A stretch of DNA of 51,574 nucleotides from a bacterium (lineage in GTDB: Bacteria > Oederibacteriota > Muellerivitia > Muellerivitales > Muellerivitaceae): the NCBI GenBank assembly GCA_035549195.1, contig DASZRK010000029.1:1-51574 (forward strand), written 5' to 3'. Positions 1,441 through 33,615 of this stretch are shown piece after piece. Position 1 is the first letter of the stretch, and the number at the start of each line of letters is the position of its first letter. Below the pieces are notes generated by a model. The model did no database searches, was not told the DNA's origin, and was given only the letters and a program-made list of their open reading frames with translations. Both the position numbers and the translations under genes were made by a program.

Positions 1441-1513
1441 CCCTTTTGGCCGGGTGACCTTTCCAAAATTCCAGGCGGTGGAACCTGAAGGGCCCGTTCC
1501 TTCCATGAGGCCG

Positions 1514-1527
1514 TTTGACCGGTTCAA
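1514..1527. promoter_or_regulatory. Operator-like palindrome upstream of the GH18 gene
   Basis: TTTGACCGGTTCAA is a two-base variant of the perfect palindrome TTGAACCGGTTCAA found before two other enzyme genes here. It lies about 105 bases before the GH18 start. The CG-centred dyad has the shape of a LacI-family operator (inference). Confidence 0.55.
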
Positions 1528-1631
1528 CGGATAAAGTGACATCAGAATCGCCGGAAATGGACATCGCTATTTTCGGCTTCTGGTAACGTTTCCTCGTCGG
1601 GACCGATCCATTTTCCTTTGAAGAGGGGAAC

Positions 1632-3950: not shown

Positions 3951-4057
3951 TCGGGACGGTCCATCGAACGGATCGAACCTCGCTTGGCTTGAACGAGAAA
4001 GAGAACGCCAGTCCTCCAGCCGCAGAAAAAACCCGAAAAAAGTTTTAGAGAGTTCCG

Positions 4058-4077
4058 GGATCCATTGGGTCCTTTTT
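4058..4077 (+). terminator. Weak rho-independent terminator-like hairpin
   Basis: GGATCC, loop ATT, GGGTCC, then five T. The stem is only 6 bp with one wobble, about 108 bases after the GH18 stop codon. It may end the GH18 transcript. Confidence 0.3.
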
Positions 4078-4088
4078 GAGCCAATTTC

Positions 4089-4117
4089 TTGTCCCTTTTG
4101 GTCCCGGGCGGTATATT
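4089..4117 (+). promoter_or_regulatory. Sigma70-type promoter for the GH51-like gene
   Basis: The -35 TTGTCC (4089-4094) and -10 TATATT (4112-4117) are separated by exactly 17 bases. The operator-like palindrome lies about 80 bases downstream, between this promoter and the start codon, where a bound repressor could block elongation. Confidence 0.5.
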
Positions 4118-4197
4118 TTTTCCGAAGTTCCAGTGTTTGAACGTCTTTCCACCCCACCAACACAGGACCTTGCCCGGCTAAATAAATTGCAATTTCA

Positions 4198-4211
4198 TTG
4201 AACCGGTTCAA
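4198..4211. promoter_or_regulatory. Perfect operator palindrome TTGAACCGGTTCAA
   Basis: This is a perfect 14-base palindrome centred on CCGG, 20-26 bases before the possible start codons of the next gene. An identical copy lies at 8601-8614, and near copies lie at 1514, 17092 and 20633. Confidence 0.65.
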
Positions 4212-4231
4212 GAAAACGATTTAAACGACAG

Positions 4232-7200: not shown

Positions 7201-8443
7201 CCCGACGGCGAGCGCCACCTCCAGCTTCACCCCGACCTCCACGCCTACCCGGACGGCTTCGATGACGTCCACGGCTTCGCCCTCCTCGACCCCAACGGTC
7301 ACCCGTACCTTCACGAATACCGATGTCATCACGCCCACCCCGACCTCGACCCCCACGGTCACCGTGACCTCCACGGCCAGCGGTACTCCGACGTCCACTT
7401 TCACGAATACCCCGACCGCGACGGCTTCGCCCTCTCGGACATCCACTTCGACCTCGACGGCGACCGCCACCTTCACCATGACCCTCACCGGGACCCCCAC
7501 CTCCACTCCGACGATCACCCCGACCCCCACTAACACCGATGTGATCACCCCGACGCCGACTTCGACGGGGACGATGACCTTCACACCTTCCCCGACCGCC
7601 ACTTATTCACCGACCCCGACCTTTACGTCGACTTCGACGGATTCGATGACGCCTAGCGCGACAGCCTCCAGCACTCCAACGCCTTCATCGACATCAAGCT
7701 GGACGGCGTCCCTCACCGCTTCGCCTTCGGCTACGCCAACACGAACGTTCACCGGGACTTCCACCGTGACTTCGACCCCGACGGTGACGGCGACTTTCAC
7801 GAACACCAATGTCATCACGCCCACCCCGACCTCCACGGGGACTTCGACCGGAACCTCGACGGCTTCGACTACGGCGACTACGTCGCCTAGCGCGACAGCC
7901 TCCAGCACTCCAACGGCTTCATCGACATCGAGCTGGACCCTCACCGCTTCGCCTTCGGCTACGCCAACTTGGACCTCCACTTCGACCCCGATGGTGACCT
8001 TCACCCCATCCGCTACCGCTACTCGGACCCCTACATCGACCTCCACGGTCACTTTCACCCCAACCTTCACCCTGACCCCTTCTTTCACCCCGACGGTCAC
8101 GCTGACCCCGACGCCCAGTTCAACATCCACCAAGACCTCTACGGCCACCGGCGTTCCCAAAAAGGGCGGGGTCGTTCCTTATCCCAATCCGGTGTCCGGG
8201 CCTGGCCCCATTTCGGTCCAGATCACCCTGATCCAGCCGGAAAGCGATGTGAAGCTCACGGTCTTCACGACGGCTTTCCGGAAAGTGAATGAAATGGACC
8301 TGGGCGCACTGCCGATCGGGGTCTATCAAGTCGGTCTGTCCCTCAGGGACAAAGCGGGTGCGGACCTGGCCAATGGCCTTTATTACATCGTGGTCCATAG
8401 TTCGGAAGGCCGGTTTATCGGAAAACTCCTGATCTCCCGCTAG
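4232..8443 (+). CDS. Secreted clan GH-A (GH51-like) arabinofuranosidase-type enzyme with duplicated binding domains
   Basis: This is a predicted secreted enzyme cutting plant hemicellulose or pectin side chains. GTG 4232 or ATG 4238 could start it; AGGTGA lies very close, so the choice is unsure. The signal peptide ends ...APSMAAG. The barrel (about 35-400) has YWEVGNE with E179 as likely acid/base and YWMTEYRS with E301 as likely nucleophile, the spacing of clan GH-A. A beta-sandwich follows to about 505. Two homologous domains of about 180 residues come next (each begins C-x-L-x-NG and carries ENGTWSG-N-ATR, ending in F-I/V-DNI); they are probably carbohydrate-binding. A Thr/Pro linker of about 420 residues and the shared C-terminal domain (PYPNPVSG ... 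[11 protein letters not shown] ... LANGLYYIVV ... KLLISR) finish the 1403 residues. The family assignment is by motif only; GH39 or GH30-like families remain possible. Confidence 0.85.
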   Translation: MSMPVLRFKYLSFYILLPIVLFLIAAPSMAAGVSVTVNAASAIRTIPDTLFGQNMSVYDGSATAGNTNYVNALSAMGTYNLRFPGGSWSDGVDWSNLENGPAPGCSSGSYIINISEGIAFAKAANVPLQCIVNYGGYWCPGGATSHGHAAAVSLASAWVNYMNKGAGNYKVTYWEVGNEIFGSWENGYETNGTNYGNNFVDFYNAMKAVDSTIKVGAICQDESGWMPWSEAALSAIKAKGVTPDYLISHAYPIGNAADNTTVDNQLLTTEVDAATTRTSEMNTILSTAGFTPGSIPYWMTEYRSTAPEQKTVEWVDAMWSAQYLLELGRNGWQGANIWAIKNGFSSAVTSDFGLLRGGSANSDDTPANNPRPAWYIFPYLSKVFGRNLVSATTSLAAQRCWASKDASGNLTVFTVNNTATSNTVTITVSGFSPGTSGNIWTLAPAGTTKSGASTPAQELRWISVNGTTNPAVSAVPGTGNSITTGASFPVTVPAYNMVLVKVPPGGTPVPTSTPTRTVTPTPTQCTILLNGTNSLTENGTWSGVNATRSIATSGLPSGMPSEGSGALQVHITTGSAYNADIANLAGFSPAVFGSAVQLQMEVNAAATLVSALGGWHSLVLVADSSAGPVTTWQSISSDSPTLVAGQQTLTFNLDYPQAITSASALSTLRIVLNAQNAAVGDLFIDNIRLVNSCGIATPTFTPTRTPTPCSALFNGCQSAVENGTWSGNNATRTFVNSAGAVAGMPSQGTTCMKVQVTTPSGYNNDLFNLSGFTPTDLYGTTRISMDLYADAALVGGGYNQLILFADSGPNGISYQGLSSTVPTVVAGLQTLTWTIDFQNPGGGASSLTSAMPITKLYFVYNTGAPTALGNFYVDNIQFLHDGCIPTHTPVPTATPTRTATSTPTNSPTRTPSSTPTSTSSPTASPSMTLTSSPTATRTSTPTASMTPTASLTATPSASPTRTSTSTAASTATSTPSSTASRTATSTASNSPTASATSSFTPTSTPTRTASMTSTASPSSTPTVTRTFTNTDVITPTPTSTPTVTVTSTASGTPTSTFTNTPTATASPSRTSTSTSTATATFTMTLTGTPTSTPTITPTPTNTDVITPTPTSTGTMTFTPSPTATYSPTPTFTSTSTDSMTPSATASSTPTPSSTSSWTASLTASPSATPTRTFTGTSTVTSTPTVTATFTNTNVITPTPTSTGTSTGTSTASTTATTSPSATASSTPTASSTSSWTLTASPSATPTWTSTSTPMVTFTPSATATRTPTSTSTVTFTPTFTLTPSFTPTVTLTPTPSSTSTKTSTATGVPKKGGVVPYPNPVSGPGPISVQITLIQPESDVKLTVFTTAFRKVNEMDLGALPIGVYQVGLSLRDKAGADLANGLYYIVVHSSEGRFIGKLLISR

Positions 8444-8550
8444 CCTCAGAGCGCGGGAAGGTCTTGGAAAAGTTGCGGGATGTTCCGTCCCCGGAAAGCC
8501 TTTACCCAAAATTCCCCTGTAACCTTTGGCGGCCGCTCACGATAGTTCGG

Positions 8551-8556
8551 TATGAT
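8551..8556 (+). promoter_or_regulatory. Candidate -10 box TATGAT before the PL4 gene
   Basis: TATGAT lies about 100 bases before the PL4 start and 45 bases before the operator palindrome. No good -35 box was found at 16-18 bases, so this is weak. Confidence 0.3.
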
Positions 8557-8600
8557 TTGAACATCGGACGTTCCCTTGAAGGGGTTTCCACGCCCGGATG

Positions 8601-8614
8601 TTGAACCGGTTCAA
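8601..8614. promoter_or_regulatory. Perfect operator palindrome TTGAACCGGTTCAA
   Basis: Identical over all 14 bases to the site at 4198-4211. It lies 38 bases before the PL4-type lyase gene, whose stop overlaps the GH28 gene, so it may control both. Confidence 0.65.
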
Positions 8615-8652
8615 TTAAAAAGTTTTCCAAAGACTCCGCGCCTGAAAGCCGG

Positions 8653-11600
8653 ATGAGGTCGATGATCGCGAAACGCTTAAAACAATTTTTCTTTCTGCTT
8701 TCCTTCCTATTCTTGGAAGCGCTTCCGCTTTGGGCCAATGTCCCCGGCGGGGGCACGGGGACCGGCGGCAACGTCACGGTCACCGACAACGGCGGCACCG
8801 TGGTCCTGGCCAACGGCATCGTGTCCGTCACCATCAATAAATCCAACGGCAACATCACCAATTTCACCTACAACGGGACCAATCTGCTCTCGGGGGGGCA
8901 CGGGGGCGGTTACTTCTATTGGGATGGTTCCGGTGGGCCGACGCTCTCGAGCGCCGTTTACACCTTGAGCGTCAATCCGTCCGGTAACGGAGGGAACCAG
9001 GCGGAGGTCTGGCTCCAATCGACCGCCGATCCGATGGATATGGCCGTCTATTACGACCTCAACCGCGGCCAGCAGGGCATCTACGTGACCATGATCCTCA
9101 CCCACCAATCCGGTTATGCCGACTATCCGGGGGCGGAACTGCGGTCGAACGTCTATGTTGGTTCCATCTTCGACTGGCTTTGCGTGGATCCTTACCGTTT
9201 CCGTCAGATGGCCTCGCCCAACGACAGTTCGGTGGCCGTGGCGGGCGCGCCCGCCGAGGTCACCCAATGGACCAGCGGGATCTACAACGGTCTCACGGAA
9301 TGCAAATACGCCTATAGCGCTCCCCTTGGCCAATTGGACACCTGGGGCTGGGCTTCCAGCAGTTCGGTCGACGGCATCTGGCAAGTGCTCCCGAGCCATG
9401 AGTATTACGATGGCGGGCCCATGCACCGGGAACTCACCGAGCACATCGGCAACACGCTCCTGAACATGTTCGGCGGCGGGCACTATGGATTCGGATCGAC
9501 CCAGGACCAACCGGCCGGGACCTTCTCCTCCAAGACCTTTGGCCCGGCTTTTATTTACGCCAACAAGTACACGGGATCCGCCGGCGACCCCGTCTCCCTC
9601 AAGGCCCGGACCCTTTGGGCCGACGCCCAGGCCCAGGCCGCCGCCGAACAGGGCGCTTGGCCCTATACCTGGTTCCATCCCCAGACGCCCAGCGGAATGA
9701 GCGGCTCCCCCTATCCCCAGGACAGCGGGCGGGGGACCGTGAGCGGGACCCTGGCCATCAACGATCCCAACAACCCCGGCGCCTCACCGGTGAGTCTCTG
9801 GATCGGTTTGGCGCCGGATAACGGCGGGACCGATTTCCAGCAGCAATACCTGACCTACCAGTTCTGGGTGCGCACCGGGGCCGGAGGGAGCTTCTCCATC
9901 CCGCACGTTTTGCCCGGCGCCTACAACCTCTGGGCCTTCGGTCCGGGCGCCATCGGTACCTTCAAGCGGACCGGGGTCAATGTGAACGCGGGTTCCACCG
10001 TCAACCTGGGCACGGTCACCTGGGGCCCGTTGCGCTTGGGCCCCACCGTCTGGGAGATCGGGACGCCGGACCGGGATTCCAACGAATTCTTCAACGGGGA
10101 ACATTCGCTCACGCCCTATAACGGCGCCCTTCCGCGCTACGCGGGCGGCGCTCCCTATAACAGCCCCACCGCCTGGGGCGCCTTCCTGGATTACGCGAAC
10201 CAGTTCCCGGGCGGGGTCAGCTTCACGGTGGGGAGCAGCAACCCGGGGACCGATTGGAACTACTGCCAACCCACCACCTATACGGGATCCGCCTACACCG
10301 GGACGACTTCCCGGATCTATTTCAACCTTGCCTCCGCGCCCTCGGCGGCCCAGACCGCCCGGCTTTATATCGCCTTTGCCTCGAATTACAGTTCCGCCTG
10401 CATCTTGACGGTCAATGGGACCGTCCAGACCGCCGCGGTCATGGGGTCCACCAACGGCCAATACGCGTCCATCACCAATCCGGCGACGGGTTTTTATCCC
10501 CCGGCCCACAGTTTTGACAGCATTGTCCGCCTGGGTTCGCAGGGTGCCTGGGGGGACGCCTACCTGGACTTCGCGGCCAACAAGCTCCACGCGGGGACGA
10601 ACGAGATCGATATCGGCATGCGGCCCGCCGGCGGCGCGGGCAATGGGAACGGGTTCGAATACGACTATTTGCGCCTGGAAATGACGGGATACAGTTCTTC
10701 GTCCTCACCGACGGCTACGCCCACCAGGACGTCGACGGCGACATGGACCGCGTCATCGTCCCCGACGGCCACGGCTTCGACTACGCCGACTCCGTCGGCT
10801 ACGCTCACCGCTACGCCTTCGGCTTCGCCCACCAAAACCTTCACGGCGTCGGGGACTCCGACAGCCACTTCGACCCGGACCTTTACGGCGACGGCCTCGA
10901 ACACGTCTTCGTCCACGGCGACGGCCACGCGCACCCATACCCCGGTGCCGCCTACGAACACTCCCACCATCACGGCGTCTTCCACGTCCACGGCGACGAG
11001 GACGGCCACGGCTTCGACTACGCCGACTCCGTCGGCTACGCCCACAAAGACCAATACCATGACGGCCACGTTCACCTGGACCAGCACCCCGACGGCTTCG
11101 ACTACGGCGACTCCGTCGCCTACGCTCACCGCTACGCCTTCGGCTTCGCCAACGCCCACGCCGGTTCCACCCACGAATACCTTCACCTCGACCGTAACGT
11201 CCACCGCCACGATGACGCCGACGGCTTCGATGACGCCTAGCGCGACAGCCTCCAGCACTCCAACGCCTTCATCGACATCAAGCAGTTCGATGACGGCTAC
11301 GCCTTCCCTCACTGCGAGCTGGACGCCGTCCCTCACCGCTTCGCCTACGCACACGCCCGTGCCGCCAACAGCCACTTTCACGAACACGAATAGTCCTGTT
11401 CCGCCGACGGCTACCTTCACAAATACCAATAGTCCGGTGCCGCCCACGTCTACCTCGACCCGTACCTTTACGGAAACCTCCACAAATACACCCACGAACA
11501 CCGCCGTTCCTCCGACGGCCACCATGACCCGGACCTTCACTTCCACAGCCTCGGGAACCCCCACCCCGACGAACAGCTTCACTGCCACCTGGACCTTGCC

Positions 11601-11976
11601 CCCCACCTTTAGCTACACGCCGACGGTTACCCCGACATTGACCTGGACTTCAACTCCTACCTTCCCACTCCTCACTCCTACCTTCACGCCGGGGACCGGC
11701 GTGACCGCGGTGATCTATCCGAACCCGGCGACCGGGGATGGCTTCAACATCCAGGTGACGGGGATGACCACGGTGGACAAGGTCCAGGTGCAGGTGGAGA
11801 CAACGGCCTTCCGCAAGGTGAACGAGATGACCTTCCATAGCCAAGGGCCGGGGACGGCGATCCTGGCCGTGCCCGCGACGGACGCTTCGGGCGCGCCGCT
11901 GGCCAACGGGGTCTATTACGTGATCGTCCGCACCGAAGGCGCACGGATCACCCTGAAATTGATGGTGCTACGTTGA
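8653..11976 (+). CDS. PL4-type rhamnogalacturonan lyase, secreted
   Basis: This enzyme is predicted to cleave the rhamnogalacturonan I backbone of pectin by beta-elimination. ATG 8653 was taken; ATG 8662 is an alternative. The signal peptide ends near residue 29 (...[10 protein letters not shown]). The order fits three-domain PL4 lyases: an N-terminal beta-sandwich catalytic domain opening with [15 protein letters not shown] (about 35-350), a carboxypeptidase-regulatory/FnIII-like domain (GTVSGTLAI ... [20 protein letters not shown], about 355-460), and a CBM-like domain beginning [17 protein letters not shown] (about 465-680). A Thr/Pro linker of about 330 residues and the shared C-terminal domain ([12 protein letters not shown] ... 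[12 protein letters not shown] ... [10 protein letters not shown] ... KLMVLR) follow. The TGA overlaps the ATG of the GH28 gene, so the two pectinases are probably co-translated. The last 235 bases are almost identical to the end of that gene. Confidence 0.88.
10926..11222 (+). repeat. Linker-coding repeat, copy 1
   Basis: About 297 bases within the PL4 Thr/Pro linker match 13421-13717 in the GH28 linker without gaps and with only scattered substitutions. The match runs from the [10 protein letters not shown] coding segment to the codons before SMTPSATAS. It marks recent recombination or duplication between the two genes. Confidence 0.8.
11740..11976 (+). repeat. C-terminal-domain repeat, copy 1
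   Basis: Near-identical to 14298-14534. In the first 205 bases only two substitutions were counted by eye, both silent (AC[A] to AC[G], GC[A] to GC[G]); the last 30 bases diverge more. Such DNA identity in an otherwise diverged pair suggests gene conversion. Confidence 0.85.
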
Positions 11977-14534
11977 TGCACTGGGTCCCCAAACCGCCCG
12001 CTTTCGCCGTTTTCCTGTTCCTTGGCGCCTCGGTCCAGGCTCAGACCCTCAACATCACTTCCGCTCCCTACAACGCCACCACGGGCAGCACGGACAACCG
12101 GGCCGCCATCCAGGCGGCCATCAACGCGGTGGGGAGCGGCGGGACCGTGCTGGTCCCCTCGGGGACCTTCCTTTCCGGCCCCTTGACATTGAAGAGCAAC
12201 ATGACCTTCCAGATCGCCTCGGGCGGGACCCTCAAGATGACCGCTTTCGGGACCTTCCCCCAGAACACGAGTTTCGTCTATGGGACCAACCTCACCAACC
12301 TCACCCTGAACGGGTCGGGGACCATGGACGGCCAAGGCGCGGCCTGGTGGACGGATTTCAACAACGGCAATCCGGACAACCGGCCCCCAGCCATGATCTA
12401 CCTCTCCAAGTCTTCCAACGTGACCCTGATGGGGATCACGGTCAAGGATTCGCCCAAGTTCCACATCCAAACCCTGGGGTCCATGAACGGGGTCTATTGC
12501 TCGGGCTTGAGCATCACGGCGGCCTGGCCTTCGCCCAACACCGACGGCATCGACCTGAGGGGGAAGAACTACCTGATCGAGAACTGCTACATCAGCGACG
12601 GGGACGACGTCATCCAGATCGGGGGCAGTTCGGACAACTGCCAGGCCATCACCATCCGCAACTGCACCTTCGGCACCGGCCACGGCCTTTCCATCGGGGG
12701 TTACACCCAGGGCGGGGTGAGCGACCTGTTGGTGGACAACTGCACCTTCAACGGCACCCAGTACGGCATCCGGTGGAAGACGGGCCGGGACCGGGGCGGG
12801 GTCATCACCAACCTGACCTACTCCAACATCACCATGACCAACATCCTGCTCTATCCCTTCTTCCTGACCAGCTTCTACCCGAATCCCTCGTCCCTGCCGC
12901 CCACCACCGACGACACCCAGGCCATCACCAGCACCACGCCCTTCTGGAGCAATATCACGCTCCGGAACATCACGGCCACCACGGCTTCCAGCGGCGCCAA
13001 GAGCCCGGGAATTATGTGGGCGGTGGCGGAGGCTCCGGTCTCCAATGTGACGCTCGACGGCGTCACCGTGACGGGTCCCAGTGGGAAGAACTTCGAGTTC
13101 CACCACGCCAGGAACGTGACCATCCTGTGCAATGTCCGGGTGGACGGACAGGCGCCCCCGACCGACATCGGGTCCTTCGACGCGACCATCACCTACCCGC
13201 CCTGCGGGAGCGCCACCAATACCTTCACCCCGACCCGGACGAACACGCCGGTGCCGCCGACGGCGACCTTGACCCGGACCAACAGCCCGACCTCAACCCC
13301 TACTTTCACAGCCACTTCGACCCGGACGGCTTCGATGACGCCTAGCGCGACAGCCTCCAGCACTCCAACGCCTTCATCGACATCAAGCTGGACGGCGTCC
13401 CTCACCGCTACGCCTTCGGCCACGCGCACCCATACCCCGGTGCCGCCTACGAACACCCCCACCGCCACGGCGTCTTCCACGTCCACGGCGACGAGGACGG
13501 CCACGGCTTCGACTACGCCGACTCCGTCGGCTACGCCCACAAAGACCAATACCATGACGGCCGCGTTCACCTGGACCAGCACCCCGACGGCTTCGACTAC
13601 GGCGACTCCGTCGCCTACGCTCACCGCTACGCCTTCGGCTTCGCCAACGCCCACGCCGGTGCCACCCACGAATACCTTCACCTCGACCGCAACGTCCACC
13701 GCCACGATGACGCCGACCAGGACCTTCACGGTGACGGCGGTCCCACCCACCGCTACCGCGACGGCCTCCTCCACGGCGACTTCCACTTCGACCCCTTCGG
13801 GAACGCCCACGAATACGGCGGTCATCACTCCCACGGCGACCTCCACCGCCACCAGAACGGGGACCCCGACCGCCTCTTCCACCTTTACGGTCTCATCGAC
13901 GCCCAGTTCCACCCCCACCCCGAGCTTCACCGCCTCTTTCACGCCCTCGAGCACCGCCACGAGAACCTTCACGGCGACGGCGGTCCCACCCACGGCTACC
14001 GCGACGGCTTCGATGACGCCTAGCGCGACAGCCTCCAGCACTCCAACGCCTTCATCGACATCAAGCTGGACGGCGTCCCTCACCGCTTCGCCTTCGGCTA
14101 CGCCCACCCGGACTTTCACCCCGACGAACAGTTCCACCGCCACCTGGACCTGGACCCCCACGGGGACGCCCACCCCCACCCTGTCACAGACGCCTACGGC
14201 GACGCAGACAGGGACTCCGTCCTTCAGCCCCACCCTCACGCCCACGGCGGGGAACGGGATCCAGGCGGTGATCTACCCGAACCCGGTGTCAGGGGACGGC
14301 TTCAACATCCAGGTGACGGGGATGACCACGGTGGACAAGGTCCAGGTGCAGGTGGAGACGACGGCCTTCCGCAAGGTGAACGAGATGACCTTCCATAGCC
14401 AAGGGCCGGGGACGGCGATCCTGGCCGTGCCCGCGACGGACGCTTCGGGCGCGCCGCTGGCCAACGGGGTCTATTACGTGATCGTCCGCACCGAAGGCGC
14501 GCGGATCATCCTCAAATTGATGGTCTTGCGATGA
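11976..14534 (+). CDS. GH28 polygalacturonase, secreted
   Basis: This enzyme is predicted to hydrolyse polygalacturonan (pectin). The ATG overlaps the previous stop as TGATG, which is why it is preferred over an upstream TTG. The signal peptide ends about residue 17 (...GASVQAQ). The right-handed beta-helix covers about 18-410 and carries all GH28 signatures: NTDGID (D190), DGDD (D210, D211), GTGHGLSIG (H236) and R266-W-K268, so the catalytic and substrate-binding residues look intact. A Thr/Pro linker of about 350 residues and the shared C-terminal domain ([12 protein letters not shown] ... [10 protein letters not shown] ... [10 protein letters not shown] ... KLMVLR) follow. It forms a pectin-degrading pair with the PL4 lyase just upstream. 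Its exact mode (endo or exo) cannot be read from the sequence. Confidence 0.92.
13421..13717 (+). repeat. Linker-coding repeat, copy 2
   Basis: Gapless near-copy of 10926-11222, here in the GH28 gene. A shorter cassette reading [14 protein letters not shown] recurs on both sides of it and in other linkers of the block. Confidence 0.8.
14298..14534 (+). repeat. C-terminal-domain repeat, copy 2
   Basis: Near-identical to 11740-11976; see that entry. Confidence 0.85.
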
Positions 14535-14677
14535 ATGGTCGCCCTGTCGTTTTTTGATCGTGGATCGCTGAAAAAGAGCGATTTCTAACGGGTCGGTCAG
14601 GTCTTGGTGGCCTGAGAAAGGGCCAAGTTCGTTCCAACATAGGCGCTTTATCATTAAATTATTTGCCCCGTGGATGG

Positions 14678-14716
14678 CACTGAAAATGCACCTGGAACCA
14701 GGCAATATTTTCAGTG
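14678..14716. promoter_or_regulatory. Nested inverted repeat before the Kelch-type gene
   Basis: Outer arms CACTGAAAAT (14678-14687) and ATTTTCAGTG (14707-14716) are perfect complements. They enclose inner arms CCTGG (14691-14695) and CCAGG (14698-14702). The structure ends 18 bases before the ATG and is followed by TTTT. It could be a leader hairpin, an operator or a terminator. Confidence 0.5.
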
Positions 14717-14734
14717 TTTTCCGAGTGGGGTCCA

Positions 14735-16195
14735 ATGCGTTCTTCCTTCAAGGTCCTGGGGTGTCTAGGGTGGATGATCTTGTCCTGGGTGGCGGGGTGT
14801 AACAGGCCCTTTTCAGGCCCGGCCGCTCCTGGCATTTCGAACTCCTTGTCGACCCCGACGGATACCCAATTTCCATCCAAGACCTGGACGCCCACGATCA
14901 CGGATACCCACACCCCGTCCCCGACCATGACCGCTTCACCCTCGTCCACGCCCGTCCCCTCCGATACTTGCACGGGGACGCCGTCCATGACACGGACCGC
15001 TTCCTTTACCTGCACGGAGACGCCCACTTCCAGCCCGACTTCCACCTTTTCTGCCACCCTTACCCCGACTGCGACTGATCCGAATACGGCGACCTCGACG
15101 TCGACCGTGAGCTGGACCCCGTCGCCGACGCTCACCGCGTCGCCATCCGCCACCCCTTCGGGGACCTCCACTTCGTCCCCGACCCCCAGCGCCACCGGGA
15201 CCCCCACTCCCTCCGCGACCGCCACGGCCTCGGCTACCGCCACGCCGACCCAGAAGCCCTTGGGGTGGGTGCAGGCCACCGCTTCGGCGTCTTTTGGTCC
15301 CCGGATGTTCTCGGGGTACGCCGTCTTCAACAATAAGATGTGGCTGATCGGAGGTGGGACCGATTGCTCCATCCAAGGCGGGGTCAAGGCGGACGTCTGG
15401 TCCTCGACCGATGGGATCACCTGGACCGAGGTCCTGGCCAATCCTCCTTTCGGAACCCGGTGGGGATGCGGGACGGTGGTATTCAACGGCAAATTGTGGG
15501 TCATCGGCGGAGTGGTCACAGGTGGTTTCGGGAATGATGTCTGGAATTCCAGCGATGGGGTCCAGTGGACCCAAGTCACGGCCGCCGCGCCTTTCGCAGC
15601 CCGGGAGGATTTTGGTTGCGTGGTCTTCAATGGACGCATTTGGGTCATCGGCGGGGACAATAGCCTAGGGCTGGCCGCGATGTCGGATGTCTGGAGTTCG
15701 GCCGACGGTGCGAATTGGAAAAGGGAGGCTGATTTTCCCTCGGCTCGGGCCGGTGCTTCCTGTGTGGTGTTCAATGGGGCCATCTGGGTCATCGCCGGGG
15801 GAAAGGCCACTCCGGCGGGTGGGAACGCCTATTACGTTAACTCTTATTCGGATGCCTGGTATTCCAATGACGGGACCCATTGGACCCAGGCCACGGCCAA
15901 CGCGGGTTTTTCAGGACGGGTCTATGCTTCCGCCCAGGTCTATTACAACCAGATCTGGCTCATGGGTGGGGCCGGTAGTTCCTATATGCCGACCATCCCC
16001 AACACGGGTGTGGATGATGACGTGTGGGTCACCAACGATGGGACGACCTGGACGCAAAAGTATGCGACCCTACCCTTCGCCAAACGATTCGCCGCTGAAA
16101 GCTACGCCTATAACAATTCCTTTTGGGTCGCGGGGGGCGGGGCCTTCTGGCCCGGGAGCGGCGCCTACTATCCTGACGTCTGGCATAACCCTTAA
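14735..16195 (+). CDS. Lipoprotein with Thr/Pro linker and six-bladed Kelch-type propeller
   Basis: The ATG at 14735 is preferred over an upstream GTG (14714), because it directly begins a lipoprotein signal peptide with lipobox WVAGC (Cys22). A Thr/Pro/Ser linker (about 30-178) follows, then a propeller built from six repeats. Each has a strand of the type FNGKLWVIGG (six variants, from FNNKMWLIGG to YNNSFWVAGG) and a turn of the type DVWSSTDGITWTEV. The last ends at DVWHNP at the stop codon. Unlike the four upstream enzymes and the protein at the window start, it lacks the FRKV/KLLVLR C-terminal domain, so lipid anchoring seems to replace it. No catalytic residues were recognised; a carbohydrate- or protein-binding surface role is inference. 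It is convergent with otsB, 5 bases away. Confidence 0.85.
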   Translation: MRSSFKVLGCLGWMILSWVAGCNRPFSGPAAPGISNSLSTPTDTQFPSKTWTPTITDTHTPSPTMTASPSSTPVPSDTCTGTPSMTRTASFTCTETPTSSPTSTFSATLTPTATDPNTATSTSTVSWTPSPTLTASPSATPSGTSTSSPTPSATGTPTPSATATASATATPTQKPLGWVQATASASFGPRMFSGYAVFNNKMWLIGGGTDCSIQGGVKADVWSSTDGITWTEVLANPPFGTRWGCGTVVFNGKLWVIGGVVTGGFGNDVWNSSDGVQWTQVTAAAPFAAREDFGCVVFNGRIWVIGGDNSLGLAAMSDVWSSADGANWKREADFPSARAGASCVVFNGAIWVIAGGKATPAGGNAYYVNSYSDAWYSNDGTHWTQATANAGFSGRVYASAQVYYNQIWLMGGAGSSYMPTIPNTGVDDDVWVTNDGTTWTQKYATLPFAKRFAAESYAYNNSFWVAGGGAFWPGSGAYYPDVWHNP

Positions 16196-19298: not shown

Positions 19299-19464
19299 CC
19301 ACCATTTAGTACCGTTGCTGTAGCAACCTTGATGTTTTGCTTTGAGGAATGTGCCTGTAAAGTCGATTTTCATTGACGATAAAAAACTGATATTAAAAAG
19401 TGTATAAAACGATATACCCCTTTTTCCTTTTCGGCGAAGCTAAGGCCGAAAGAAAGGGGTTCCC

Positions 19465-21755: not shown

Positions 21756-23065
21756 GGAAGATCCAAGGGATGGGGAAGGGGTTCCTGGGGGCGCTGCTGC
21801 TCCTGGGGATGCTGGTCCAGGGCTGTTCCAAGACGAGCGACGCCCTGAAGATCTCCTCCTGGGGGGACATCAAGGAGAACACGATCCTCCAGGGCCTGAT
21901 CGACGATTTCCAGAAGGCCAACCCGGACATCAAGGTCGAATTGCAGCGGGTGCCCTGGGGAGAGTACAACACCAAGCTCCTGACCCAGTTCGCCGGCGGA
22001 CTGGCCCCGGACGTGATCTTCGCCTCCACCGACAACATCGGGGACCTCTATTTCCGGAACGTGCTGGAACCGTTGGATCCCTATATCCAATCCGATCCCG
22101 CCTACGCTTCCACCCTGAAGGACTTCTATCCCACCCTCATGAACCGATTCACGGTGAACGGCAGCCTTTACGTCCTGCCCCGGGACATCTCCCCGGTCTG
22201 CGTGCTCTACTACAACAAGAAGGAGTTCCAGGAAGCGGGCCTTCCCATGCCCTCGGACGACTGGGACTGGACCGACTTCCTGAAGGCCGCCAAGGCCCTG
22301 ACCAAGGTCGATCAGGCCGGACGGACCACCCAATGGGGCATCACCGAGGACTGGGCCATGATCGAGCCCTGGGTCTATTCGGCCGGCGGCCGCTGGGTCG
22401 ATAACCCGCAGAAGCCCACTAAGTGGGCCTTCGATACCCCCGAGTTCATCAAGGGCCTGCAGTTCCGCGCCGACCTGATGAACAAGTACAAGGTCATGCC
22501 TTCCCCGGCCAACATGACGGCCATGGGCGGCGTGGGCGCCTCCGACATGTTCGTGAACGGCACCGCCGCCATGTTCATCTCGGGCATCTGGAAGACCCCG
22601 CAGTTCCGCGACATCAAGACCTTCGACTGGGACGTCGCCTTGTTCCCCAAGGGGCCGGGCGGCACCCGCGGCTACCAGAGCGGCGGGTCGGGCTACGGCA
22701 TCCTTTCCACCTCCAAGCACAAGAAGGAAGCCTGGAAACTGGTCTCCTTCCTGGCCGGCCCCGAGGGCGAGAAGAAGATGGCCTCCACCGGACTGGTGCA
22801 GCCCGCGCTCATGAGCGTGGCCAACTCCCCCGTGTTCCTCGACGGCCAGAAGCCCTTGAACAAGAAGATCCTCCTCAAGGCCGAGCCCTACGGCATCTTC
22901 ATGCCGCTCATGGTGAACTGGCAGGAGGTCTACCAAGGCAACGTGATCCCGACCTTCGATAACCTCTGGCTGGGCAAGACCGACGCCGCCGGCGCCGTCT
23001 CCCAGCTCTGGAAGAAGATCAAGGACCGTTCCTTCGGCACGGACCAAAAAGGAGGGGCGAAATGA
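21752..23065 (+). CDS. ABC sugar-binding lipoprotein (extracellular solute-binding family 1)
   Basis: This is a predicted periplasmic, lipid-anchored sugar-binding protein of an ABC importer, 437 residues. The start overlaps the previous stop (ATGA). The signal peptide has lipobox LVQGC near residue 25. Family features: LKISSWGDIKENTILQGLI, FQKANPDIKVELQRVPWGEY, LAPDVIFASTDNIGDLY, VLPRDISPVCVLYYNK, TQWGITEDWAMIEPWVYSAGG and NGTAAMFISGIWKTP. No permease or ATPase gene is in the window, so the importer must be completed from elsewhere. Its stop overlaps the GH18 start, so it is co-transcribed with sugar-degrading genes; chito-oligosaccharide is a reasonable guess for the ligand. Confidence 0.9.
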   Translation: MRKIQGMGKGFLGALLLLGMLVQGCSKTSDALKISSWGDIKENTILQGLIDDFQKANPDIKVELQRVPWGEYNTKLLTQFAGGLAPDVIFASTDNIGDLYFRNVLEPLDPYIQSDPAYASTLKDFYPTLMNRFTVNGSLYVLPRDISPVCVLYYNKKEFQEAGLPMPSDDWDWTDFLKAAKALTKVDQAGRTTQWGITEDWAMIEPWVYSAGGRWVDNPQKPTKWAFDTPEFIKGLQFRADLMNKYKVMPSPANMTAMGGVGASDMFVNGTAAMFISGIWKTPQFRDIKTFDWDVALFPKGPGGTRGYQSGGSGYGILSTSKHKKEAWKLVSFLAGPEGEKKMASTGLVQPALMSVANSPVFLDGQKPLNKKILLKAEPYGIFMPLMVNWQEVYQGNVIPTFDNLWLGKTDAAGAVSQLWKKIKDRSFGTDQKGGAK

Positions 23066-24813
23066 TGAAAAGCCAAAGTCCCCTCCATCACGGAGGCACG
23101 GAGACACGGAGAAAGGCGGGGGGGATACTCCTCGCCGCCCTTCTTTTGTTGCCGGTTTGTCTTCACGCTCAAACACAGGTTGCGGGACCCAAGAAAAAAG
23201 GTCCGGTGGCCATTTCAGGTTGGGTCACGTTTTGGGACCAAGGTCACAAATCGGTGGCCAGTTTTGTCAAACACGCGAATCAAATCGATCGTGCTTACTT
23301 CGAATGGTATCACCTGTCGCCGGATGGCATGCCAGCGCCTGTTACTGATGCGACCGGGGATTTGAAAGCCCAGGTTATGGCCGCCGCCAAAAAAGGAGGT
23401 TGTGAGACTTGGTGGATGATCGGTAACTATAACGTCGCCATCGGGGCTCATGATGCCGGATGGGTCGAAAAGTTCCTGAATGACGGTGATCTCCGCAAAC
23501 GCCATATCCAGCAGTTGATCGACTATGGGAAAGCCGACGGAGTCGAAGGGATCCAGATCGACTATGAGGAACTTAAGGCTGAGGATAAGGCAGGGTTCTC
23601 AAATTTCATGGCGGAATTGGGCAAGGCTTGCCAGGCCAATGGTTTCAAACTGGGGATCGCCGCCCATGCAAAGGTGGATGCCAATGGAACTTGGGGTGGG
23701 CCACAGGCTCAGGATTATCACGCAATTGGCGGGGTGGTCCAGCAATTCATGCCCATGACCTACGATCTTCATTGGTCTACCAGCGGGCCGGGATGCGTGA
23801 CTGCTCCCGAGTGGGCCGAGACTTGCATCAAATATGCGGCATCCGTTATTCCTGCCCCTGAACTGGAAATAGGTTATCCAGTTTATGGTTACGATTGGGT
23901 CGGAACACATGGTGATACTTTGACTTGGTCCGGCTTCCAGGACCTGTTGCAAAAATATAAACTTACTCCCGTCCGTGACAACGACTACAGTCAAGAATTG
24001 AAGATCAATTACACGGATGACAAAAACCAACAACATGAAGCGTGGATCCCGGATTCCCAATGTCTGGAAGCCCAAGCCAATGTGGTAAAGCGAAACAAGC
24101 TTTATGGGTTGGGGGTTTGGTATTTTGGGGCCGAAGATGAAAGTTTTTGGACCACTATGGCCAAGATCAACGGAACAACCGAGGAAACGCATTTTTTCAC
24201 CTCCGGAAGTCCCAACGTTGTGGCGGAAACTTCTGCGGGGCCTTTGCCGGTCAAAGATTTGATCTCAGAAAAGGCGGCGGCTGATTATTCCTATGCCTAT
24301 CCTGAAGGTTCCAAGATTGTCATTGTGGATAAGCAAGGCAAACGTTGGGTGGATGTTTCCCTGAAGGGCACGGCTTGGTCTGGATTTGGGGTGGGCATGT
24401 CCCGCAAGAATCTGCTTCCTTATCGACAATCAGGGGCTCTTCAATTTTATATACGCGGGGCTAAGGGCGGAGAAACTAATTCAGTTTGTTTCATTATGGA
24501 AAAAGGAATGCAGGCCGACGAGAAATATAACCTGGTTTCTGAAGTTCAGTTATCGGACTATTGTAAGGTCACGACCCAATGGCAATTGGTGACCATACCC
24601 CTTTCGGATTTTCCGGAGAACGGTTATCACCATGATGATGCGACCGGCGCTAAGATCACGGGTCCCTTTAAATGGGAACGAGTCCTGGAATTCGGGGGGA
24701 ATCATACCCCGACAGCCGACGCGAATTGCGAAATGTTTTTTTCCTCCGTCCGAATTATTCCGTCTTATGACGCCAAAGCCGTGGAAAAAGCCAAGTTCCG
24801 GGCTCTGCAGTAG
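23062..24813 (+). CDS. Secreted GH18-family protein with C-terminal binding domain, atypical base composition
   Basis: A 583-residue predicted secreted enzyme. The start overlaps the previous stop; GGAGGGG stands upstream. The n-region of the signal peptide (HHGGTETRRKAGG) is encoded by a dispersed 'cacggag' repeat; the h-region LLAALLLLPVCLHA follows. The barrel (about 50-385) resembles the spore-germination/SleL-like branch of GH18: ISGWVTFWDQ, then GVEGIQIDYEEL carrying the catalytic Glu, then FMPMTYDLHWST and GLGVWYFGAEDESFW. The first Asp of DxxDxDxE is replaced (V-E-G-I-Q-I-D-Y-E). The C-terminal 175 residues look like a CBM11-type beta-sandwich (YSYAYPEGSK ... FYIRGAKGG ... CEMFFSSVRI). 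Codons are markedly AT-richer than in flanking genes, which suggests transfer. Confidence 0.8.
   Translation: MMKSQSPLHHGGTETRRKAGGILLAALLLLPVCLHAQTQVAGPKKKGPVAISGWVTFWDQGHKSVASFVKHANQIDRAYFEWYHLSPDGMPAPVTDATGDLKAQVMAAAKKGGCETWWMIGNYNVAIGAHDAGWVEKFLNDGDLRKRHIQQLIDYGKADGVEGIQIDYEELKAEDKAGFSNFMAELGKACQANGFKLGIAAHAKVDANGTWGGPQAQDYHAIGGVVQQFMPMTYDLHWSTSGPGCVTAPEWAETCIKYAASVIPAPELEIGYPVYGYDWVGTHGDTLTWSGFQDLLQKYKLTPVRDNDYSQELKINYTDDKNQQHEAWIPDSQCLEAQANVVKRNKLYGLGVWYFGAEDESFWTTMAKINGTTEETHFFTSGSPNVVAETSAGPLPVKDLISEKAAADYSYAYPEGSKIVIVDKQGKRWVDVSLKGTAWSGFGVGMSRKNLLPYRQSGALQFYIRGAKGGETNSVCFIMEKGMQADEKYNLVSEVQLSDYCKVTTQWQLVTIPLSDFPENGYHHDDATGAKITGPFKWERVLEFGGNHTPTADANCEMFFSSVRIIPSYDAKAVEKAKFRALQ
23089..23115 (+). 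repeat. Dispersed 'cacggag' repeat inside the GH18 N-terminus
   Basis: CACGGAGGCACGGAGACACGGAGAAAG-type unit, related to the repeats at 26448 and 31867. It lies in the coding region and encodes the charged n-region of the signal peptide. Confidence 0.6.
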
Positions 24814-26447: not shown

Positions 26448-26536
26448 AACCACAGAGAGCACAGAGGGCACGAAGAAGACTTCCTCCTGGGAATCATTTT
26501 GATTTACTCTGTGATCTCTGTGTACTCTGTGGTTCG
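26448..26536. repeat. Dispersed palindromic repeat, 'AACCACAGAG ... CTCTGTGGTT' type
   Basis: Left arm AACCACAGAG (26448-26457) continues as AGCACAGAGGGCAC. The right half reads CTCTGTGATCTCTGTGTACTCTGTGGTT, with its outer arm at 26525-26534. It lies just before the PIG-L start; its right arm resembles the one that encodes the hydrophobic stretch of the second M16 protein. Confidence 0.75.
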
Positions 26537-30236: not shown

Positions 30237-30389
30237 CACCGCGAAGAAAACCGTTCCCGTGATGACACCAAAAACACGGAGTAACGTCAAAAGATCGTTA
30301 TCTTCTTCCGAGCAAAGGATCCCTCCCCGTGCCTTCCCAAAACAATAGGTCCTTCCGGTCTTTCTTCGCCTCTTCGCTTCTTCGCGGTG
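30237..30389. repeat. Inverted 'CACCGCGAAGAA' repeat spanning the M16 start
   Basis: CACCGCGAAGAA (30237-30248) and TTCTTCGCGGTG (30378-30389) are perfect 12-base inverted ends. The right part TTCTTCGCCTCTTCGCTTC (30362-30380) is of the 'cttcgcgtcttcgc' repeat type. The right end lies in the coding region of the M16 peptidase and encodes FFASSLLRGG of its leader. Confidence 0.6.
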
Positions 30390-31861
30390 GGATCGGGGCC
30401 TCCTTTTTCCTTTGTCTGGGTGTTCTGCGGGCCGCCGGGACCCTGGACCTGCCGGTCGTCGAGAAGACCCTCAAGAACGGGATGAAGGTGCTCATCGTGG
30501 AGCGCCCCGGCGTCCCGGTCGTCTCCTTCTCCTATATGGTCCCCGTGGGGGCCCAGGACGCGCCCAAGGGCAAGACGGGCCTGCCCCACATGCTCGAGCA
30601 CATGATGTTCAAGGGCACCGAGACCATCGGCACCCGGGACTACGCCAAGGAGCGGACCATCCTCGACACCCTGGACCGGATCGCCGAGGCGATGAACGCC
30701 GAGAAGGCCAAGCTCCAGCCCTCGGCGGACCGGCTGAAGGAACTGGCGGCCAAGATGAAGAAGCTCGAGGACGACGCCCGGCAGGTGGTGGTGAAGGACG
30801 AACTTTCGGCCATCTATACCCGCAACGGCGGCCAGAGCCTGAACGCCTGGACCAGCCAGGACGTGACCAACTACCACATCACCCTTCCGGCCAACAAGGT
30901 CCTGCTCTATTGCACGGTGGAGAAGGACCGGCTGGCCCACCCGGTCTTCCGCGAGTTCTATTCGGAAAGGAACGTGGTGGCCCAGGAGCGTCGCTGGCGC
31001 ACCGAGTCGAGCCCCCAAGGAGCCCTCTATGAGGCGCTGGAGTCCACGGCCTTCCAAGGCAGTCCTTATAAAGACCCTTCCATCGGCTGGATGTCCGACA
31101 TCTTCAAATTGACCCGCCCCGACGCCGTGGCCTTCTACCGCCAATGTTACCGGCCCGACCACGGGGTGCTGGCGGTGGTGGGGGGCGTGAAGGCCAAGGA
31201 GATCCTGCCCATCCTGGAATCCACCCTGGGCCAAGTGCCCAACCCGAAAGCGCCGCCCCTGAAGAAGGAATGGACGGTGGAGCCGCCCCAAAAGGGGCCC
31301 CGCACGGTGGTGGCCCGCTTCGACGCCGACCCCATGGCCATCCTGGCCTGGCACGTGCCGAACTTCCCGCACCAGGAATCGGTGGTGCTGGACGTGCTTT
31401 CGACCATCCTGACCTCGGGCAACACCTCGCGGTTGATGAAAAGCCTCATCTTCACCGCCAAGAAGGCCACCTCGGTGTCCTCCTCCACGGGCTTTCCGGG
31501 GGACCGGGACCCGAACCTTTTCACGATCGATTTCACGCCGGCCCCCGGCACGGACACGGGAACGGTGGCCGATTCCATCGAAGGGACCCTGAAGGACATC
31601 CAAAAGAACGGGGTGACCCTGGAGGAACTGGAAAGGGCCCGCCGGGCCGCCGAATCCTCCTATCTCTGGGGCAAGACCTCGGCGGAGGGCCTGGCCCAGG
31701 ACCTGGCCTATAACCAGGCGGTCCACGGCGACTGGCGCTACCTGACCCGCTACCTGGACATGGTCCGCTCGGTGACCTCCAAGGACATCCAGGACGTGGT
31801 GGCCCGCTACCTGACGGAGGACAACCGGACCCTGGCCACCCTCGAGAGGCCGACCCCATGA
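30329..31861 (+). CDS. M16-family zinc metallopeptidase, catalytic subunit
   Basis: This is a predicted exported zinc peptidase, 510 residues. GTG 30329 is used, giving a leader whose n-region is partly repeat-encoded (SFFASSLLRGG) and an h-region ASFFLCLGVLRAA. The inverted zinc motif HxxEH is present as PHMLEHMMFKGT (H87, E90, H91). The distal Glu of the M16 site lies in NVVAQERRWR, after a charged insertion of about 40 residues (about 118-155, rich in K/E/L, coiled-coil-like) that lengthens the usual spacing. The C-terminal half carries the second M16 fold (AWHVPNFPHQES, TSGNTSRLMKSLI). It overlaps the next gene (ATGA), which encodes its non-catalytic partner, a common M16 arrangement. Confidence 0.88.
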   Translation: MPSQNNRSFRSFFASSLLRGGIGASFFLCLGVLRAAGTLDLPVVEKTLKNGMKVLIVERPGVPVVSFSYMVPVGAQDAPKGKTGLPHMLEHMMFKGTETIGTRDYAKERTILDTLDRIAEAMNAEKAKLQPSADRLKELAAKMKKLEDDARQVVVKDELSAIYTRNGGQSLNAWTSQDVTNYHITLPANKVLLYCTVEKDRLAHPVFREFYSERNVVAQERRWRTESSPQGALYEALESTAFQGSPYKDPSIGWMSDIFKLTRPDAVAFYRQCYRPDHGVLAVVGGVKAKEILPILESTLGQVPNPKAPPLKKEWTVEPPQKGPRTVVARFDADPMAILAWHVPNFPHQESVVLDVLSTILTSGNTSRLMKSLIFTAKKATSVSSSTGFPGDRDPNLFTIDFTPAPGTDTGTVADSIEGTLKDIQKNGVTLEELERARRAAESSYLWGKTSAEGLAQDLAYNQAVHGDWRYLTRYLDMVRSVTSKDIQDVVARYLTEDNRTLATLERPTP

Positions 31862-33615
31862 AAATCGATCGAACCACGGAGAGCACGGAGATCACGGAGG
31901 CCGACAAGGATCTTGGGTCGAGGACCCAGGCCATTTCTTCTTGGGGATCGATGATCGAAGGATACGAGCGGTTTTTCTCGGAGGGATATCGCGGAATGAT
32001 GAATGCCTTGAAGGTGGGTGGTTCCAGAACAAAGGGTCTCTTTCTTTTGAGAACCGATCGAACCACTGAGAGCACAGAGGACAACAAGGACTTTGGGTCG
32101 AAGACAAAGGCCATGCTTTCTTGGGGATCGAAAATTGAAGATCGCGGACAGCTTTTCTCTAAAAGTCATTACGAAATATTGAATTTCTTGAAGTTTAGTC
32201 GTTTTAGAACAAAAGGTCTCTTTCTCTGTGCTCTCTGTGTCCTCTGTGGTTCGGATGCGCTTTGGGGAAGGCCTCCTCAGCTGCCCGAGGCGCCGCCGCT
32301 GGACATCCAGGTCCCCGCCTTCTCGTCGGTGACCCTCGGATGCGGCATGAAGGTGGTCTTCCTGCCCGACCCGTCCCTGCCCCTGGTCTCGGGCCAGCTC
32401 CTGATCCCCGGCGGCAAGGTGGCCGACCCGGTGGGCAAGGAAGGGTTGGGCGAATGGCTCTGCGGAGGATTGCGGGACGCGGGCGCGGGGGACCTTTCCC
32501 CCGAGGCCTTCGACGCGGCCCTGGAGAACAAGGCGGCCTCCATGGGCGCTTCGGCCGAGATGGAGGATTACACGGCTTCCTTCAAATGTCTTTCCAAGGA
32601 CCTGACGGAGGTCCTGGGGCTCTTCACGGACATGCTCCGCAAGCCCCGGTTCGATGAGAAGCGCATGGCGACCGAACGGGACCAGGATATGGACGGGCTC
32701 GACCGCCTGGAGGACACGCCCGACGCCCTATCCCGCGTGGTGTTCTACAAGGCCCTCTATCCGGGCAGCCCCTATGGCCGTTGGGCCTCGCCCAAGACGG
32801 TCGGCGCCTTCACCCGGGGGGATGCGGTGAGGCAGTACGAGGACCATTTCGGCCCCCAGGGGTCCGTGCTGGTGCTGGCGGGCAACTTCGACCAGGCCCA
32901 GGTCACGGCGGACCTGGAAAAGGCCTTCGCCGGTTGGGCCCGGAAGGCGCCGAAGGTCATGGCGCCGGAGGAAAAGCCCCAGGGCCCGGTCATTTATTTC
33001 TACCCGAAGGATGTGACCCAGGTCTTCGTCCGCTGGGGTGTCCAGGGCCTCCCCCGGCATGACGCCATGGACGTCCCCCTGCAGGTGGCCAACTACATCC
33101 TGGGCGGTTCGGGCTTCACCTCGCACTTGATGCGGGAGATCCGCTCCAACCGGGGCCTGGCCTATTTCGTGGACAGCGTGGCCCAGCCCTTCGACGGGAG
33201 GGGATTGTTCGAGGTCATCGGCGGCACCCGGCCCGATTCGGTGAAGGAGTTCCTGGAGCAGATGTTCGGCATCCTGGAGGACTTCGATAAGAACGGCCCG
33301 ACGGAAGGGGAAGTGGCGGAGGCGCAAAGGTCCATGATCGAGGAGTTCGCCTACAACTTCGAATCGGTCTTCTCGCTGGCCGGCTACAAGGGCTCCCTGG
33401 ATTTCCACGGCTACCCGGACGATTACCTGGCGGGCTACCGCGACCGCATCCGGGCGGTCACCCGCGACCAGGCGGCCGCAGCGGCCAAGAGGATCTTGGA
33501 TCAGAAGCAGTGGGTGCTGGTCATCTGCGGTCCTCAGGACCTGCAGAAGGACCTGGAGGGATTCGGGAAAGTGATCCCGGTCACCTCGATCTTCGATCCT
33601 TTGCCGAAACCTTAG
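31858..33615 (+). CDS. M16-family partner subunit, non-catalytic, with repeat-derived N-terminus
   Basis: It overlaps the upstream M16 gene by ATGA. The M16 domains begin near residue 150 (FSSVTLGCGMKVVFLPDPSLP). The HxxEH motif is absent: at its place stands GLGEWLCGG, so this is probably a structural partner. Later motifs are normal (GGSGFTSHLMREIRSNRGLAYFVDS). The first ~130 residues are unusual. They are encoded by two tandem 189-base units of a dispersed repeat (TTESTEITE and TTESTEDN are the translated left arms), and the right arm supplies the only hydrophobic stretch, GLFLCALCVLCGSDALWG, which may act as an internal signal sequence. The true start may lie later, for example within or after the repeats; no good ribosome site was found there. 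Confidence 0.8.
   Translation: MKIDRTTESTEITEADKDLGSRTQAISSWGSMIEGYERFFSEGYRGMMNALKVGGSRTKGLFLLRTDRTTESTEDNKDFGSKTKAMLSWGSKIEDRGQLFSKSHYEILNFLKFSRFRTKGLFLCALCVLCGSDALWGRPPQLPEAPPLDIQVPAFSSVTLGCGMKVVFLPDPSLPLVSGQLLIPGGKVADPVGKEGLGEWLCGGLRDAGAGDLSPEAFDAALENKAASMGASAEMEDYTASFKCLSKDLTEVLGLFTDMLRKPRFDEKRMATERDQDMDGLDRLEDTPDALSRVVFYKALYPGSPYGRWASPKTVGAFTRGDAVRQYEDHFGPQGSVLVLAGNFDQAQVTADLEKAFAGWARKAPKVMAPEEKPQGPVIYFYPKDVTQVFVRWGVQGLPRHDAMDVPLQVANYILGGSGFTSHLMREIRSNRGLAYFVDSVAQPFDGRGLFEVIGGTRPDSVKEFLEQMFGILEDFDKNGPTEGEVAEAQRSMIEEFAYNFESVFSLAGYKGSLDFHGYPDDYLAGYRDRIRAVTRDQAAAAAKRILDQKQWVLVICGPQDLQKDLEGFGKVIPVTSIFDPLPKP
31867..32253 (+). repeat. Two tandem 189-base units of the 'GAACCACGGAG' dispersed repeat, in coding sequence
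   Basis: Units start at 31867 and 32056 (GATCGAACCAC in both) and share the order GGATCT/GGACTT-TGGGTCGA, TTCTTGGGGATCGA, CAGAACAAAGGGTCTC-like blocks. The last unit ends with CTCTGTGGTTCG (32242-32253), inverse of the left arm. The 189-base period keeps the reading frame. Confidence 0.75.

Follow-up and report, generated by a model that had tools for sequence, protein, structure and literature searches.

The Rickettsia palindromic elements (RPE) were reportedly described by Ogata et al. in 2000. They are palindromic repeats of about 100-150 bp that belong to several families and are found both between genes and in frame within conserved genes (PMC2229807, PMC10969869). ERIC/RU-1, Correia/NEMIS and other bacterial MITEs can also contribute ORFs that are fused to genes (PMC2229807, PMC10969869). 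In YPO1552 of Yersinia, part of the predicted signal peptide was proposed to come from a YPAL/RU-2 element (Delihas 2007, PMC2759123). Precedents thus exist (RPE and RU-2 in YPO1552), and the case described here is an event of the same kind. What is distinctive is that the elements have unique loops and arms with an 8-9-bp period, that they are in conserved protein families, that the event recurs with several arm families and that a series of orthologues is available.

The window analyzed here is a 51,574-nucleotide stretch from the genome of an uncultured soil bacterium (the source genome, G000; 3.2 Mb, 98% complete), whose relatives, known from metagenome genomes, mostly carry the label candidate division FCPU426. 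Window features are on the forward strand unless indicated otherwise. The window contains two adjacent genes encoding M16 family proteins. The upstream gene (30329-31861) encodes the catalytic partner, a peptidase of 510 amino acids with HMLEH at residue 87 and an N-terminal hydrophobic leader of its own. The downstream gene (31858-33615, 585 codons) encodes the non-catalytic partner, which has an NRGLAYF motif and lacks the HxxEH sequence that its neighbor has. Its conserved fold begins at about residue 140, and it matches both PF00675 (27.1 bits) and PF05193 (96.1 bits) above the cut-off. The TGA of the upstream gene shares bases with the ATG at 31858, and this ATGA start/stop overlap together with an SD-like GAGAGG sequence occupies positions 31843-31861. 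An AlphaFold model, with a mean pLDDT of 36.8 with 7 sequences, was set aside. Elsewhere in the window, positions 1-15250 hold large ORFs that contain extended tandem repeats of low complexity, rich in Thr, Pro and Ser (periods of 144-174 nt), including near-identical 300-nt copies at 10915/13410 and 11670/14228.

Codons 4-132 of the non-catalytic M16 partner consist of two diverged, in-frame copies of a dispersed palindromic repeat. Copy 1 (31867-32055) has a left arm at 31871-31900, a loop and a degenerate right arm, and encodes the polar residues 4-66. Copy 2 (32056-32255) has a left arm at about 32060-32084, a unique loop and the only intact right arm, CTCTGTGCTCTCTGTGTCCTCTGTGGTTC (32224-32252). 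The two copies are 73% identical over 162 nt without gaps; their left ends, GAACCAC at 31871 and 32060, each preceded by CGATC, are 189 bases apart, and the internal register is 180 rather than 189 because copy 1 has one extra 9-mer. The first-pass annotation had described two tandem units in frame, which these alignments bear out, and had stated that the right arm encodes the only hydrophobic segment before the M16 fold, which also holds. The predicted signal-peptide h-region GLFLCALCVLCG (32215-32250, residues 120-131) has 27 of its 36 nt within the right arm. With a Kyte-Doolittle (KD) value of 2.56, it is more hydrophobic than any other 12-mer in the protein; the best 12-mer in residues 1-110 reaches 0.61. 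As judged by simple hydropathy only, the segment FSRFRTKG-LFLCALCVLC has the positive n-region and the core of 7-15 hydrophobic residues expected of a Sec-type leader. The frame of the M16 ORF has no stop codons over the 115 codons from 31870 to the h-region, as compared to seven and five stops in the other two forward frames, and the probability of no stop over those codons is 0.02 under a first-order Markov null. A dN/dS-like contrast between unit 1 and unit 2, used to look for selection on the whole 130-residue region, is weak (0.61, versus about 0.8 in the other frames).

The repeat was also said to be dispersed, and it is. When the 389-bp repeat region was compared with the genome, it matched 52 places, and all of them except the query itself matched only through arms of about 30 nt. 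The arm pattern CTCTGTGNNCTCTGTGG, exact or with one mismatch, occurs 85 times (42+43) in the source genome and 4 to 62 times in each of seven family members; the reversed pattern used as a control gave no matches in either case. The arms occur as inverted pairs with GAACCAC...GTGGTTC ends, which span 60-130 bp in most elements; the 69 paired elements counted are mostly 70-130 bp in length. The arms have a 9-bp period and surround a unique loop (GAACCAC-RGAG-NNCAC-RGAG ... CTCTGTG-NN-CTCTGTG-GTTC); a complete intergenic copy of 83 bp, to which no strand was assigned, is located in the window at 26450-26532. When two elements were folded as RNA, they gave hairpins of -49 and -57 kcal/mol, with z-scores of -8.9 and -7.9. 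The elements are thus short, with inverted-repeat ends and many dispersed copies, as are MITEs and RPE. They resemble ERIC/RU-1 and Correia/NEMIS in being short and non-autonomous, in having inverted repeats and in being translatable within host genes; however, their arms are built from 8-9-bp tandem units and they have no common internal sequence. A search for conserved internal sequence among the copies gave alignments confined to the arms, and 60 loops had only short, sporadic similarities. Copies with common arms but differing loops (L033, L035, L092-L129 and the copy at 26450-26532) do not resemble multiple copies of a single transposon. The likeness to RPE is that both are palindromic, comprise several families and are found between genes as well as in frame in conserved genes; whereas RPE have a conserved body and encoded peptide and are inside many proteins, only the arms are common here, and the copies that lie in coding sequence are concentrated at leaders, where the arm comes to encode the predicted signal-peptide core.

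The arms are suited to such a position by their base composition. The right arm is pyrimidine-rich and hydrophobic in each of the three frames (mean KD of +1.7, +1.0 and +0.9 over all elements), which read LCVLCVLCG, SVYSVFSVV and LCTLCSLWF. The left arm is purine-rich and encodes polar or charged residues in every frame (mean KD of -1.4, -2.2 and -2.2). Therefore, an in-frame copy brings a ready n-region together with an h-region.

As to the wider distribution, a genome of a distant family in the same phylum (G013, family f7) has 122 exact matches to the arm pattern in 2.6 Mb, and the pattern is absent from most other families of the phylum, so the distribution is very patchy. None of the 57 arms examined in that distant genome encodes a leader. 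A literature search found no paper that describes these arms; their sequence turned up verbatim only as part of a PCR primer at an invertible promoter region, upstream of Bacteroides fragilis BF2782 (PMC3090145), which indicates that similar arms exist in another phylum.

The first-pass annotation had suggested that an alignment with the M16 partners of relatives would check its proposal, and in this alignment ordinary and repeat-derived leaders are found at one and the same start. Six orthologues from other FCPU426 genomes (G001-G006), which are 58-62% identical to the window protein, all share the start at the ATGA overlap and the SD-like sequence that precedes it, and each has a hydrophobic leader. 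Three of them have ordinary leaders (G004, MKLKKLVLALLTLSVLSPALAKPP; G003; G006). Two have a repeat-encoded core in the same codon register (G001, MKTSFTTEGTEITGYEKRFVFKMIKSLLCVLCVLCGSNVFAKAP; G005, MKQLLTTEDTEFTVYGKGSWGKMIQSLLCVLCVLCGSNAFAKAP), with ACC at codon 6 as in the window; in these two, a single 91-bp element encodes ...LCVLCVLCGSN(V/A)FAKAP, and there is no other core. The sixth leader, that of G002, contains other repeats (PHPTLSRKGRG-type and CTTCGTG-type), and its palindrome is no better than those of shuffled sequences. A possible decayed arm in the G006 leader (LFFVLCALGG) was dropped, as it scored 8 versus 12 for the shuffles. In total, three of the seven M16 leaders have a palindrome over the core that exceeds all 60 shuffles. 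The window sequence is on a long branch in the M16 tree, and the number of insertions was not settled by the M16 or rpoB trees.

A second protein family shows the same outcome. The source genome has two tandem DUF1207 genes (PF06727; G000:C2, 137.7-139.5 kb) with leaders within palindromic elements, and in 7 of the 13 DUF1207 leaders tested across the family, the right arm of a palindrome that scores above each of 60 shuffles overlaps the core. The arms in these cores are of several families (CTCTGTG, TTGGTG, TTGGCG and CTTCGTG/CTTTGTG), and several of these arm types are also present elsewhere in the sampled genomes. A further DUF1207 copy in G005 has a palindrome score of 25, versus a shuffle maximum of 13. 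Taking the M16 and DUF1207 families together, 10 of the 20 leaders are built from palindromic arms, and in both families an element is in frame within a conserved protein at the DNA level, as is typical of RPE. The YPO1552 case concerns one hypothetical protein and one element family, whereas here two conserved families and others are involved, the event recurs across several genomes and the arm families number at least four. The M16 pair adds an orthologue series in which ordinary leaders stand beside repeat-derived ones.

The GH18 gene of the window (23062-24813) is a weaker case. It was said to have an n-region encoded by the same type of repeat, and there is indeed an arm in the n-region (23089-23111); however, this arm stands alone and belongs to a related type with an 8-bp period (CACGGAGG CACGGAGA CACGGAG). 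The hydrophobic core and the LHAQ site match those of relatives that do not have the arm, which indicates that the core is ancestral; the repeat encodes part of the n-region and not the core.

How often does this happen? In a sample of 1.64 Mb from four genomes, chosen regardless of repeats and with leaders and genes called by simple heuristics rather than by SignalP or a trained gene finder, strong palindromes were present in 43 of 894 regions upstream of leaderless genes but in none of the 894 N-termini of the same genes and in only one of 1067 gene interiors. A gapped palindrome score of at least 18 was reached by 4 of 352 signal-peptide leaders, as compared to 1 of 1802 other coding windows (p=0.003; 1 of 910 interiors and 0 of 892 non-leader N-termini), and all four positive leaders are in the source genome. 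These tests replaced a first inverted-repeat test (15-mers, two mismatches) that was too noisy, with 9 of 205 versus 6 mirror matches. Of the 124 elements or lone arms, 104 are intergenic, and therefore recruitment is rare. Most overlaps between elements and mechanically called ORFs (LysR, ClpB, MurC-like and others) were put down to 5' extensions of the ORFs, with the true starts downstream, and were discarded.

One more case, a PorV-like protein (L209; G000:C17:380001-400000, position 8184), came from a targeted scan; its leader MKVVLGALASWRLMVVDASAQ is encoded by a CTTGGCG arm, with a palindrome score of 19 versus a shuffle maximum of 11. Short matches to CTTGGCG easily give false positives (L121 and L224) because CTTGGCG encodes LA in ordinary leaders. 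Two more loci were observed on the minus strand of the source genome. At L214 (G000:C2:80001-100000, near 19355), the leader ...SWKAVLGGLAAWRWTCLFIAVPVFAVAAP is within a CTTGGCG-arm palindrome (score of 21, shuffle maximum of 14). L111 (G000:C2:57500-77000, near 3991) is a lipoprotein that has its own leader core, and a complete CTCTGTG element directly behind an ATG may encode its n-region, MVEPQRAQRAQRK.... Recruitment of repeats as leaders is recurrent in the family of the source genome, yet rare per element; repeats do not serve as export signals across the genome as a whole.

We think it probable, from the sequences compared here, that the signal-peptide core of an exported M16 partner was replaced when a dispersed palindromic element entered the gene after its start codon, with translation from 31858 and recognition by the Sec machinery. 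This explanation builds on the observed arms, their frame and their place, on the orthologue series, on the DUF1207 outcome with several repeat families and on the rarity of palindromes in other coding sequence. An element of a kind that is usually intergenic would have entered behind the start codon, and its pyrimidine-rich right arm would have supplied the hydrophobic core, so that loss of the ancestral core need not have abolished export. In the source genome, a tandem duplication and subsequent divergence would have produced the polar extension of about 115 residues before the core. Translation would most likely begin at the conserved ATGA start at 31858, and the Sec machinery would recognize the arm-encoded core, so that the M16 domain would end up in the periplasm beside its catalytic partner. 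We infer the translation start, Sec recognition, cleavage and upkeep by selection rather than tolerance. As for cleavage, the window c-region GSDALWG has, by eye, a weak AxA motif, while those of G001 and G005 (NVFA|K and NAFA|K) are good. Between G001 and G005, the arm-encoded core has 1 nonsynonymous change in 34 sites, as compared to 16 in 49 in the extension before it (p=0.0006), which favors this explanation. Against it, both arms are conserved between these two genomes and their synonymous divergence is also low (2 of 10.7 sites, versus 141 of 206 in the mature part), so that conservation of the arms may be at the DNA level rather than at the protein level. In addition, the h-region is rich in Cys, and an n-region of 115 residues is abnormal if translation starts at 31858. 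The proposal in the first-pass annotation that repeats were exapted as export signals is supported by the orthologue series and the DUF1207 leaders, as a rare event in which export itself is predicted.

The long n-region would disappear if translation started at one of two in-frame TTG codons, 32179 or 32188 (32179-32190), in the loop of copy 2. The leader would then be (M)KFSRFRTKGLFLCALCVLCGSDALWG, with a conventional n-region of 12-15 residues and four positive charges, the rest would be untranslated and the ATG at 31858 would be a relic. G001 and G005 keep an internal ATG directly before the core (MIKSLLCVLC and MIQSLLCVLC), and the extension before the core changes freely at nonsynonymous sites. 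In addition, one DUF1207 gene of the source genome has only one possible in-frame start, a TTG inside the element, giving (M)RKSRRKNFFLSWGLLCELCVLCGSIVVPAFAQ. However, neither TTG in the M16 gene is preceded by an SD sequence, while 31858 retains the SD and ATGA overlap of all of the orthologues, and the 115 upstream codons are free of stops in this frame alone. The conserved SD and ATGA start and the open frame support translation of all 115 residues, and we regard an internal start as possible but less likely. The core is repeat-derived with either start.

It is more doubtful still that the elements are only tolerated, that is, that they survive where leaders are least constrained, with an arm that is hydrophobic by chance, poor or absent export and no functional co-option. 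In favor of this, the great majority of the elements are intergenic and other coding sequence has been cleared of them, GH18 and one lipoprotein have arms in their n-regions only, with the ancestral core intact, and the Rickettsia elements have been read as neutral insertions (PMC2229807). Against tolerance, the M16 and DUF1207 cases have no other hydrophobic core although their mature domains are conserved, the catalytic partner retains its own leader and the pair would be useless with an unexported partner, and G001 and G005 have kept the core through a deep divergence (141 of 206 synonymous sites, or 69%, differ in the mature part).

A gene-calling artefact, with a cytoplasmic protein that starts within the M16 fold, is what most of the other overlaps with mechanical ORFs turned out to be, but it is very improbable here. 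All of the orthologues begin at the ATGA overlap with a hydrophobic leader, and the first in-frame ATG, GTG or TTG past the arm is GTG 32329, which would cut off columns that are invariant in the seven orthologues (P147, L148, I150, P153 and F155); a start after 32250, which the first-pass annotation had named as the outcome that would overturn its proposal, is accordingly unlikely. Although the orthologue genomes are MAGs, the independent genomes G000, G001 and G005 have the same arrangement in the same frame, which makes an assembly or binning artefact scarcely credible.

A broader interpretation can be offered only tentatively: several families of palindromic repeats might act as recurrent, portable donors of signal-peptide cores in a bacterial lineage, with insertions at 5' ends being predisposed to this role, owing to one arm that is hydrophobic and another that is polar in all frames, and then selected, even with a translated extension of 115 residues.

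In conclusion, leaders made from repeats may be genuine coding sequence in genomes of this kind, and annotators should take this into account. The fast evolution of leaders usually hides where new signal peptides come from, and here one bacterial family has, at one start codon, ordinary leaders beside leaders with a core that is plainly a dispersed repeat. This provides a concrete and testable route by which an intergenic palindrome may become an export signal, and the base composition of the arms supplies a reason for it.
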